Part shown: one piece after another, positions 70 to 3,956 of the stretch
How positions within the stretch are numbered: the first letter of the stretch is position 1
How the letters are laid out: each line of letters starts with the position of its first letter
Assembly (NCBI GenBank): GCA_014523625.1
Contig: JAATVP010000104.1
Location: 1 to 11,796, forward strand
Direction: 5' to 3'
Length of the DNA stretch: 11,796 nucleotides
From: Nitrososphaerales archaeon TH5896
GTDB lineage: Archaea > Thermoproteota > Nitrososphaeria > Nitrososphaerales > Nitrososphaeraceae
The notes under the pieces: model-generated
Databases searched by the model: none
Told to the model about the DNA's origin: nothing
The model's input: the letters and a program-made list of their open reading frames with translations, nothing else
Translations under genes and position numbers: made by a program

Positions 70-327
70 ATGCTGAAGCATGATGTAGTTATACTTATTG
101 TTGATAATGAGATACAGTAATACGATCCAGTTCTGCAAAAGTTTGGGCTAACTATAGTACAAAAGAATACAGTAATATGGATCAATTCATGATTTAGTAT
201 TCTAGAAATGCTTCAAAATTTGGATGTAGAGCTTTCAATCCTTAAAGATTTATTCTCTGTTCAGCAGAATAACATTCTTTGGGACGTCACGGAATTTACG
301 GAGGACTGGAGAATTGGGAAAACATGA
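70..327 (+). pseudogene. decayed reading frame, possibly a cupredoxin remnant
   Basis: A frame starting at ATG 70 runs for 85 codons, interrupted only by TAA 118-120 and TGA 190-192, and ends at TGA 325-327, inside the start of carB. Between the two stops it reads like the metal-binding beta-strand region of archaeal cupredoxins (VQKNTVIWIN, compare the common pattern VxxGxTVxWxN). The copper ligand His/Cys residues expected downstream are not visible, so any such protein is non-functional. The last intact piece (ATG 208 to 327, 39 codons) could instead be a short independent ORF. A separate open stretch from the window edge to TGA 74-76 may be the tail of an upstream gene; it was not recognised. 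Nothing in 1-313 resembles the C-terminus of CarA, the usual partner upstream of carB. Assignment is weak. Confidence 0.22.
300..304 (+). promoter_or_regulatory. Shine-Dalgarno GGAGG deciding the carB start
   Basis: GGAGG lies 9 nt before TTG 314. Together with the in-frame homology that begins immediately after that codon, it supports TTG 314 as the true carB start, 286 bases before the first ATG (600) of the uninterrupted frame. Confidence 0.6.
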
Positions 328-3300
328 AAATATCAAGAAAGTTTTAGTCCTAGGTAGCGGGGCAATTAAGATCGGAGAAGCAGGCGAAAGTCATTCGGTA
401 AAGCGAAGACCGCCATTTCGATTACTCTGGTTCTCAATGCCTCAAAGCGTTAAGGGAAGATAACGTAAACACACTACTAATTAACCCAAATATTGCAACT
501 ATTCAAACCGATAGCAGATTCGCGGATCGAGTATACCTCTTACCCGTTAACCTTGAATATGTAACAAGCATACTTGAGCTTGAACGCCCAGATTCGATAA
601 TGTTGAGTTTCGGGGGCCAGACAGCGTTAAACTGTGGGGTTGCGCTGGAAAATAATGGGATCCTCAAGAAATATGGGATAAAGGTATTAGGCACACAAAT
701 TCACGGTATTCAAAATACCGAAGATAGACAACTTTTCAAGGATAATATGGCAGAATGTGGACTTCCAGTCCTTGAAAGCTCATCAGCGAACTCTATCGAA
801 GAGTCCCAAAAAATTGCCGAGCGAATAGGATATCCAGTAATCATAAGGGCGGCTTATACGTTGGGCGGACGGGGCGGCGGTGTTGCCTACAATGTTTACG
901 AACTACAGGAGATAGTACAACGAGGACTCGCACTTAGCGTGGTTCGACAAGTTCTAATAGAAAAATACGTAGGATCCTGGAAGCAAATTGAATATGAAGT
1001 AATGCGAGATCACCACGGAAACAGTGTAATAATATGTAATATGGAAAACGTTCTAGCGATGAAGGTTCACACGGGGGATAACATAGTCGTAGCTCCTTCG
1101 CAGACACTAAACAACTACGAATATCATGTACTTCGGAGTGCAGCATTGAAAGCCACTAAGAAATGTGATATCATCGGCGAGTGTAATATTCAGTTCGGAC
1201 TTGATCCTGGTTCTGAGAATTATTGCGTTATTGAAGTAAATGCGCGATTATCTAGATCCTCCGCATTGGCCAGCAAGGCTACCGGATACCCATTGGCATA
1301 CATGGCCGCAAAGATAAGCTTAGGGTACTCACTACCTGAATTAGTTAACACTGTCACGAAAGCTACTACTGCATGTTTTGAGCCTTCGTTGGATTACATT
1401 GTTCTGAAGATGCCTAGATGGGATTTCAAGAAATTTGAATTGGTAAAAAAGAGACTTGGCAGCACAATGAAATCAGTTGGGGAGGTAATGGCGATTGGCA
1501 GGAGCTTTGAAGAGGTAATTCAAAAGGCAGTCAGAATGTGCGACAATGGAAAGCATGGCCTCGTTTCCAATTCCAGGATTGACAGTAATGGGTCAGATGG
1601 CAATAATTTTTCTTCCACTTTTGTTTTTGATGAAAGGTATGGTGTAACTAATTTAAGTCAGCAGAAAGTGCTGCTTCCGACGTCAGTAGAGCGAGTACGG
1701 ATTGATTCGAATAATGCTTTGGATTTAAATTCGCCGGAAAACACAAGTGATCTATGTAGTGCAGATGTAAATTCTCAACGCGATAAACAGTTACCGTACT
1801 TGTCTTCATCAATGGGAAATAGTTCTGATGATGATAATATCAATAGTAGTAGTAATAGCTGTACTAATTGCAATGATGATAGTAGTATAAATGTAGAGGA
1901 TCATGAGATTGAATCCATCGAACAAGCTCTATTACATCCAACAGATGAGATCCTCTTTGATGTAGTAAGAGCGTTGAATGTGGGCATGTCAGTGGACCGC
2001 GTCAACTCGCTCTCGTCAATAGATCCTTGGTTCATAAACAAGATACAATCAATAGTCAGAACTGAAAAGAAGTTAAGAACTTCGACTCTAAACAAGAAAA
2101 TATTGCTGGAGGCGAAGAAAATAGGATTCTCAGACATCCAAATTGCCAACTGCTGTAGCATCGACGAGATTGATGTTAGATCACTGAGAAGGAAGTTGTT
2201 GATCCAGCCAGTTACCAAACAAATAGATACTTTAGCTGCTGAATGGCCAGCTAAGACCAACTATCTTTATCTCACCTACGGCGGTCAATTTGATGACGTT
2301 CAATATGATTCGAAAATAAAGTACAGAAAATTAATATCCAGTATGAAGGCTAGCAAGCCACTAGCAAAGAATAAGCCTTCAAAGGTGATAGTCCTAGGTG
2401 CTGGACCATACAGGATAGGCAGCAGTGTAGAATTTGATTGGGGCACCGTAAATATGGTTTGGGGCCTAAAGGACAACGGTTGTAAGGAAGTCATAATCAT
2501 CAATTGTAACCCTGAAACCGTCTCCACCGATTATGATATTTGTGACCGCTTGTATTTCGAAGAACTAACATACGAAAGGGTAATGGACATTTGTGAAAGA
2601 GAAAATTCTGATGGAATAGTAACTTGCGTGGGGGGCCAAACTGCAAATATACTAACCCCAAGGTTAGCGTCTGCAAATATGAATATTGTAGGAACATCTG
2701 CCGCAAGTGTAGACCAAGGCGAGGATCGATCCAAGTTTGGAAAGCTGCTTGACTCGTTGGGTATAAGACAGCCAGCTTGGAAAAAATTTACGAGTTTAGA
2801 TGAAGCAAGATCATTTGCAGAGGTAGTGAAATACCCTCTGCTCGTTAGACCCTCTTATGTACTTAGTGGCGCTGCAATGAAAGTCGTTTGGACCCCAGAG
2901 CAGTTAAAGAAATACTTGACTGAGGCAACAAATGTAAGCCCTGACCACCCAATTGTTATGACAAAGTTTTTGGAAGACGCTTCAGAAGTGGAAGTTGATG
3001 CAGTAGGAGACGGACAGAGCGTAGTAATTGGTTCGGTTATCGAACACATTGACAACGCTGGCATACACTCGGGAGACGCGATGATGTGCATTCCTCCTTG
3101 GAGGCTAGATAGGGAAACGATAGAGATGATCACTGAATATAGTAAAAGAATCGGCGTGGCTATGAAAATAATTGGACCTTTCAATATACAATTTTTGGTA
3201 AAGAAAGGCCAGGTATTCGTTATAGAAGCCAACGTGCGCGCTTCTAGGTCGATGCCATTCGTATCAAAATTTACTGGTCTAAATTTAATTTCACTGGCTG

Positions 3301-3956
3301 CTCAAGCCATGATGGGAAAAAAACTGCCTGATGATCGTAGCGATAGTTGGTTAAGAAAGTCTGGTTTTGGCATAAAAGTTCCTCAATTTTCTTTTATGCA
3401 GCTCGAGGGTGCGGATATTGTCCTTGGTGTTGAAATGCAATCTACAGGGGAGGTAGCCTGTTTTGGGTCAAGTTTTCACGACGCACTTTCGAAAGCCTAC
3501 ATTGCGGCCGGATTCAACCTACCACTCAGAGGTAGAGTATTGATAACTGCCGGAGGACCTACTAACAAGGAAAGAATCCTTCCTCTTGTACGAAAGATCG
3601 GCGACATGGGGTACTCTATTATGGCTACAGAACACACCGCAGATTTTATAGAAAATTTCAATATTCGCCCAGTTGAGAGAGTATACAAGATTAGCGAACC
3701 TCTAAGAAAACCCAATATTTCAGAGATGCTTTTTAAACGTCAAATCGATTTCATTATTAATATTCCATCCACATCTACAATTGAGCGATACGTTGGGATG
3801 CTAGATGATGAATATCAGATACGTAGGAAGGCGGTCGAGCTCGGAATACCTGTTTTGACCACGGTCGAATCTGCTTCCACATTCATCAATACACTGGAAT
3901 GGATTAGAACTCACACAACTACCTTTGACTACTTAAGACCCTACATTGAATCATAG
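314..3956 (+). CDS. carB: carbamoyl-phosphate synthase large subunit, intron-interrupted: join(314..388,417..3956)
   Basis: CarB makes carbamoyl phosphate from bicarbonate, ATP and ammonia (supplied by CarA from glutamine) for pyrimidine and arginine synthesis. The predicted spliced protein has 1204 residues. The N-terminal nucleotide fold begins KKVLVLGSGAIKIGEAGE at the TTG 314 start and continues FDYSGSQ after base 417. The two pieces are in different frames, separated by 28 extra bases. The first ATP-grasp half carries EVNARLSRSSALASKATG (E298, N300, matching the metal-ligand positions near 299/301 of the E. coli enzyme). The second half carries EANVRASRS (E962). The oligomerisation region lies between them (LHPTDEILF, from about 535), and an MGS-like regulatory domain begins near 1060 (GRVLITAGG). 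Two oddities are the insertion at 389-416 and a low-complexity segment of about 112 residues in the central linker, making the protein longer than the usual roughly 1070. Without splicing, translation from TTG 314 would stop at TAA 461-463 after 49 residues. No carA lies immediately upstream. Confidence 0.96.
389..416 (+). other. predicted 28-nt bulge-helix-bulge (BHB) intron in carB
   Basis: Seen in the sequence: the exon bases GGCG (383-386) pair with CGCC (411-414), giving a 4-bp central helix. A 3-nt bulge AAA (387-389) follows on the 5' side and a 3-nt bulge ATT (415-417) on the 3' side. Within the insert, GTC 390-392 pairs with GAC 408-410 and TTCG 394-397 with CGAA 404-407, with A393 bulged and a 6-nt loop at 398-403. 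Archaeal splicing endonuclease cuts between the second and third base of each 3-nt bulge, here after 388 and after 416. This removes exactly 28 nt and restores GEFDYSG, the conserved CarB motif, in frame. The outer exon helix is poor (only A382-T418 pairs), so this is a relaxed HBh' motif rather than the full hBHBh' form. The insert holds a TAA (399-401) in the exon-2 frame. Splicing itself is inferred. Confidence 0.8.
1566..1901 (+). other. low-complexity Ser/Asn/Asp-rich insert within carB
   Basis: About 112 codons (spliced residues roughly 409-520) between the end of the first ATP-grasp half (KAVRMCDNGKHGL) and the oligomerisation domain (IEQALLHPTDEILF) are rich in Ser, Asn and Asp. The stretch 1818-1890 is dominated by runs of GAT, AAT and AGT codons, the pattern expected from trinucleotide slippage. 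In known CarB proteins this linker is short. The frame stays open, so it is probably a tolerated disordered loop. It could conceivably be a second unspliced element, but no BHB fold bounding it was seen. Confidence 0.75.

Follow-up and report, generated by a model that had tools for sequence, protein, structure and literature searches.

Among described systems, the cbf5 introns of Crenarchaeota (Desulfurococcales and Sulfolobales) come closest to the element analyzed here. According to the available part of PMC2738675, they are short, ORF-less introns in a conserved protein gene, with mostly unconventional, relaxed BHB motifs that are cut between bulge residues 2 and 3, a variable interior and lineage-specific loss, and their relaxed pre-mRNA motifs have been linked to a hetero-oligomeric endonuclease. 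The same part mentions that introns in further archaeal protein genes had been predicted but lacked confirmation. As of 2020, the accessible text of PMC7714728 names a single archaeal mRNA BHB intron reported elsewhere, that of cbf5, in addition to its own case, a 46-nt intron in the leader of Haloferax volcanii HVO_1309 that is processed by the splicing endonuclease. The same source points out that circRNA-seq disfavors short RNAs.

Here, we analyzed a stretch of 11,796 nt from Nitrososphaerales archaeon TH5896, referred to as the window, in which a 28-nt insert at positions 389-416 disrupts the carB frame between GAA 386-388 and TTC 417-419. We are very confident that this insert is a BHB intron of the carB mRNA, predicted to be cut at 388/389 and 416/417, after which RtcB would join the exons and restore the frame. 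The carB element resembles the cbf5 introns in all the features named above. It differs in the host gene, in the archaeal group, and in its conserved exon-exon helices with frozen codons; moreover, cbf5 splicing was shown by cDNA, whereas carB splicing is predicted. Its size, described as extremely small in a preliminary description of this DNA, is ordinary beside the 16-44 bp given for cbf5 introns in the available part of PMC2738675. With HVO_1309 it shares an mRNA as host of a BHB intron, but the HVO_1309 intron lies in the 5' UTR according to the accessible text (PMC7714728), whereas the carB insert interrupts the reading frame. Archaeal tRNA introns at relaxed BHB sites are alike in cut geometry and size range (11-175 nt in the part of PMC2738675 available), but the carB host is an mRNA, with no tRNA body holding the exons. 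Archaeal rRNA introns likewise have BHB borders, and that part of PMC2738675 describes numerous ones with homing endonuclease ORFs, whereas the carB inserts are ORF-less and 20-40 nt long. A literature search by title and abstract start, with most subscription journals outside its reach, found no report of a carB intron, and we file the carB insert as a BHB intron of the known pre-mRNA kind in a new gene and lineage, with unusually clear exonic constraint.

Results

The carB reading frame and its insert

All features described below lie on the forward (+) strand. Exon 1 of carB (314..388) comprises 25 codons, from a predicted TTG start at 314 to GAA 386-388, and its translation is LGKHENIKKVLVLGSGAIKIGEAGE. 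The frame resumes at TTC417, the first codon of exon 2 (417..3956; 1179 codons plus the stop ending at 3956), as FDYSGSQCLKAL..., and the junction-spanning peptide of the joined CarB is IGEAGEFDYSGSQCLK. In the window allele, the junction cannot be slid by a single base, as 388 is A and 416 is T, while 389 is A and 417 is T. The insert coordinates and the junction had been given exactly in the preliminary description, and intron-less relatives have the clean join at this point. Against TIGR01369 (carbamoyl-phosphate synthase large subunit), the joined CarB reaches 1386.6 bits. The database gene call P0004 starts at base 600, so that the first 86 residues are missing, and scores 1233.7 bits, 153 below the joined protein.

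Over codons -17 to -11 of exon 1, the 110 intron alleles (see below) have mean entropies of 0.52/0.15/1.60 for the three codon positions, a pattern like that of a translated frame selected at the level of the protein. A DNA search of the source genome for carB returned just one match; carA is also present, on a different contig. Rfam and ARAGORN searches of the window gave no match. As a side aspect, a long low-complexity stretch lies between the two CarB halves at 1560-1920 of the window (SNSRIDSNGSDGNN...SSSNSCTNCNDDSS).

Structure of the predicted intron

In the predicted fold of the window allele, the central helix is formed by GGCG (383..386) in exon 1 and CGCC (411..414) in the intron, so that exon bases would supply one of its strands. 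It is flanked by the 5' bulge AAA (387..389) and the 3' bulge ATT (415..417). The inner stem (390..397 with 404..410) consists of the pairs GTC 390-392/GAC 408-410 and TTCG 394-397/CGAA 404-407, with A393 bulged. All these elements, already proposed in the preliminary description, were confirmed. As cuts fall between bulge residues 2 and 3 according to the available part of PMC2738675, the predicted sites are 388/389 in the 5' bulge and 416/417 in the 3' bulge.

In our model, the predicted 5' cut lies in a bulge of the regular 3-nt type, and the 3' site is relaxed, because the exon-exon clamp described below is set back by an internal loop. An exonic helix that directly closes the 3-nt bulge, as in a strict hBHBh' motif, is absent here, and the motif is filed as relaxed. 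The HBh' form proposed earlier omitted the conserved exon-exon helix.

The single-sequence fold energy of the window allele is unexceptional (z -1.2; 21 of 200 shuffles were equally good). It is the comparison across alleles, and not the fold of one sequence, that puts the BHB beyond chance.

Comparison of the junction across alleles

A wider reading of 251 loci, 245 of which could be parsed, yielded 208 distinct alleles, 110 with an insert and 98 with a clean join. The inserts are 20-40 nt long and fall into all three frames (46/36/28). Their precise removal restores the conserved protein, with the join GEAGE/FDYSGSQ in most alleles. Retention of any of the 110 would destroy the protein, through a frameshift in 64 and an in-frame stop in 46.

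We fixed the junction by protein homology alone and scored an allele as having a BHB when it formed three or more of the 4 central pairs and an uninterrupted run of 4 or more inner pairs. A BHB exactly at the protein-defined junction was found with 104 of 110 distinct inserts, compared to 43 of 22,000 mononucleotide-shuffled inserts, and when the junction was moved by 1-6 nt, 0 or 1 of the 110 alleles still passed. The six alleles that missed have an inner stem interrupted after 3 pairs and include the window's own, which fails because the bulged A interrupts its stem at this point. A G.A combination occupies the outermost central pair in 24 of the 110 alleles, leaving 3 central pairs.

For covariation, 38 diverse sequences were picked from 92 distinct ones. 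In this set, 95.7% of the cells are paired, and both-side changes occur in 52 cells, compared to a shuffled mean of 18.2 (0 of 500 shuffles as high) and to 3-15 in slid controls. The number of pairs with a both-side change is a weaker measure than the others (5 versus 3.6 expected, with 15 of 500 shuffles as high). Changes on both sides affect four of the five modelled stem pairs, and compensation is found mainly in the inner stem. In one allele (L204 of genome G347, family f16; here and below, codes are our own), the central helix reads GGTG/CACC and is thus fully compensated between exon and intron. When RNAalifold was given the 38-sequence alignment with no structure supplied, it recovered the inner stem, three of four central pairs, and one exon-exon helix. 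The structure of the carB insert is kept by compensatory change.

Proposed exon-exon pairing and frozen codons

Beyond the BHB, the flanking exons can pair with each other. The bases CGGAG (373..377) in exon 1 and CTCTG (425..429) in exon 2 form a proximal helix, with all 5 pairs formed in 108 of the 110 alleles with the intron, versus 11 of the 98 without it; this is the exon-exon helix recovered by RNAalifold. The two alleles without the CGGAG/CUCCG helix belong to f10. Among intron alleles only, the number of paired cells (384/390) does not exceed that in shuffles (384.0) because the helix hardly varies, and full pairing was found in 76 of 78 rows, a value that 0 of 2000 shuffles reached. 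The proposed proximal pairing draws its support mainly from the contrast with intron-less genes. A likely distal helix joins GGGGCA (359..364) and TGCCTC (438..443), with 6 of 6 pairs in 62 of 110 intron alleles versus 1 of 98 intron-less ones. It exceeds shuffles in paired cells (460/510 versus 454.6; 5 of 2000 as high) and in full pairing (44 of 85 rows; 3 of 2000 as high), and we grade it as likely because the excess is small.

In 108 of 110 intron alleles, TCGGA could instead pair with the five bases that open exon 2, and one suboptimal fold contains a helix of this kind. We favor CGGAG/CUCCG, since intron-bearing f2 genes conserve the third base of both TAC and TCC, a feature that the TCGGA alternative leaves unexplained.

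In intron-bearing genes, the codons next to the junction hardly vary, which is consistent with pairing of the exon bases. The GGC codon of the central helix is present in 108 of 110 intron alleles, compared to 10 of the 94 intron-less alleles with Gly at this position. Within f2 (Nitrosopumilaceae), the contrast between intron-bearing and intron-less genes covers GGC at Gly-2 (27/27 versus 3/35), GGA at Gly-5 (27/27 versus 8/35), GAC (27/27 versus 0/35), TAC (27/27 versus 6/35), and TCC (26/27 versus 0/35). In f4, it is seen for GGC (11/11 versus 2/12), GGA (11/11 versus 0/12) and TCC (11/11 versus 4/12), and is absent for GAC (11/11 versus 12/12) and TAC (11/11 versus 11/12). Across 16 conserved codons located further downstream, the two sets of genes have similar codon entropies (1.59 with the intron, 1.52 without).

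Distribution in the family, class, and phylum

Within the genus, the insert is present in five of five genomes, including the window's own, and is 28 nt long in the other four. One insert (L003) is identical to that of the window, and L004-L006 differ from it in the loop, the bulge and a single base of the central helix (G-C to G-U) without losing any pair. We then searched 70 genomes of the family, of which 62 had the carB stretch, and read all 62 junctions. The insert is at the junction in 61 of them, 60 whole and one partial (L025, close to a contig end, where only the 3' part is visible). The sole clean intron-less carB among the 62 is L035. The closest kin of the source genome keep the intron, and intron-less genes with exactly the predicted join are found in G034, which belongs to the window's family, and in many Nitrosopumilaceae.

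A covariance model was run against 400 genomes of the class, 321 of which matched. The matches fall into 204 strong (E <= 1.8e-17) and 117 weak ones (E >= 5.5e-12), with none between. The strong matches belong to eight families (f2, 130; f1, 57; f4, 11; f10, 2; f5, f15, f16 and f20, one each). The 150 strong matches listed with their places have the intron-bearing length, and the remaining rows were assigned by score; the weak matches listed with places are mostly 48 nt long, the length without insert. Beyond the class, no strong match appeared in a scan of 398 genomes of the phylum that scored up to 12 candidates per genome. The top-scoring row there, G483 (E 5.4e-12), spans 48 nt and belongs to a carB that lacks the intron. 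Translation in six frames showed no FDYSG motif in two longer, atypical rows, G613 (65 nt) and G682 (56 nt).

Of 80 named records, 76 could be parsed; 53 have the intron and 23 have none. By the labels as deposited, the intron is found in Nitrososphaera, Nitrosocosmicus, Nitrosarchaeum, Nitrosotalea, and 6 of 17 Nitrosopumilus; it is absent from 5 of 5 Nitrosopelagicus and from 11 of 17 Nitrosopumilus. With 204 of 321 matching genomes of the class, what had been presented as the novelty of a single genome gives way to a predicted intron that is lineage-wide.

Some records deserve separate mention. L129, labelled Nitrosopumilus, carries a carB intron of the Nitrosocosmicus type and is probably a mislabelled bin. 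Three genomes (G053, G213, and G376) have two matches each on separate contigs, and those that were read (L067 and L301; L302 and L303; L099 and L304, respectively) are intron-bearing; these genomes probably represent mixed strains. Within one genus of f4 (g26; L278-L287), the intron is present in some species and absent in others, a favorable case for studying recent loss.

Annotation of CarB proteins

We also checked the 120 best of 7998 scored database CarB proteins (P0004-P0123). In 92 of these, wrong-frame exon 1 and then the translated insert form the N-terminus; P0019 begins with the translated insert alone, and 20 start downstream of the junction motif. Only seven contain the true join; they share the N-terminus LKALAEEG..., unlike that of the window, and probably come from intron-less genes. 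As 113 of the 120 lack the join, the listed gene calls, those seven apart, miss the first exon. The mis-start among these 113 is a systematic gene-calling error.

Splicing machinery of the source genome

The source genome has two PF01974 (splicing-endonuclease-domain) genes. The product of the one on C42 keeps the motif GPGIDHAPF, with 3p1z as best match, and the product of the one on C207 is without that histidine, which we take to be the catalytic residue. Judging from these sequences, we infer that the pair would form an alpha2beta2 endonuclease, and the assignment of the two products to alpha and beta subunits is likewise putative. In the available part of PMC4090602, alpha2beta2 splicing endonucleases are assigned to Thaumarchaeota. 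The relaxed 3' site would fit such a hetero-oligomeric enzyme, by analogy to cbf5. A gene for the RtcB ligase is present as well (E 2.7e-170).

With these enzymes, the proposed pathway would be as follows. The carB mRNA would fold, with the exon-exon helix 373-377/425-429 clamping the structure and 359-364/438-443 as a probable second clamp. The tRNA-splicing endonuclease would then cut after 388 and after 416, and RtcB would join GAA to TTC, restoring the CarB reading frame. If so, CarB, and with it pyrimidine and arginine synthesis, would depend on the tRNA-splicing machinery.

Discussion

The reading of the insert as a BHB intron, which goes back to the preliminary description, is supported by the shared junction, the compensatory changes, the intron-less alleles, the single carB match, and the presence of splicing-enzyme genes. 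Based on this comparison of sequences, we predict splicing of carB with high confidence.

As the insert is short and structured and a skip would fall between two codons, it was in principle conceivable that the ribosome gets past it by hopping or by a frameshift, with no splicing of the mRNA. In phage T4 gene 60, bypassing uses matching take-off and landing codons. Such codons are matched in none of the 110 carB alleles, lengths of 20-40 nt in three frames at one constant junction suit splicing better than one slip, and the conserved parts are those of the BHB, all of which makes bypassing very improbable. Slightly less probable still is the view that the first 25 codons are dead and that translation of a shorter CarB begins within exon 2 or ahead of it, with the insert as a leftover or regulatory hairpin. 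The starts of 113 of the 120 best-listed database proteins, in wrong-frame exon 1, in the translated insert or downstream, would agree with it. However, the entropies of exon 1 (see above) resemble those of a translated frame, exon 1 encodes GSGAIKIGEAGE as do intron-less genes, the 46 inserts with an in-frame stop argue against it, and P0004, being 86 N-terminal residues short, drops 153 bits against TIGR01369.

The window comes from a draft genome of 277 contigs with 92% completeness, in which an error of sequencing or assembly would be conceivable, as would decay of this carB beside a second copy that is intact. Yet independent assemblies share the insert at the junction, including the single-contig genomes G011, G012, G013, G030, G031, and G047, and the DNA search found a single carB in the source genome. 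The same junction is occupied in 61 of 62 family carB genes, and we consider error or decay to be practically negligible as an explanation. The preferred reading is thus that of a BHB intron removed from the carB mRNA by splicing.

As to its history, one origin followed by repeated loss is the simplest reading of the sequences, because all the introns occupy one position and have their flanks in common; transfer or gene conversion may also have played a part. A tree of exon 2, built by a quick method from 104 rows, has 38 starred branches among 101 inner ones, and its f2 rows are biased to the best matches, which are mostly intron-less. It requires at least nine state changes, eight of them forced by starred branches, and gain and loss are indistinguishable in it. 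The intron-bearing carB L277 (G098, f20), from another order by kinship code, groups with f4 and was possibly transferred together with its intron. L186 (G140, genus code g18), an intron-bearing carB inside an intron-less clade of this tree, suggests gene conversion or transfer of the carB 5' end. A broader scenario, which we put forward tentatively and hold to be somewhat less probable than its opposite, is that the coding intron dates back to an early ancestor of the ammonia-oxidizing archaea and left its signal in the exon codons. The tRNA-splicing endonuclease and ligase would then gate the first committed step in the synthesis of pyrimidines and arginine, and this control would have been shed by open-ocean lineages (such as Nitrosopelagicus and many Nitrosopumilus).

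If carB is spliced as predicted, its introns would be the second widespread family of archaeal protein-gene introns after cbf5, and the carB annotation would have to be corrected in many genomes. Coding introns would then not be a thermophile curiosity, as the host is a housekeeping gene of soil and marine ammonia-oxidizing archaea and their relatives. The carB alleles constitute a large natural presence/absence series, and the codons beside the junction suggest that the needs of splicing can shape codon choice across an exon junction.
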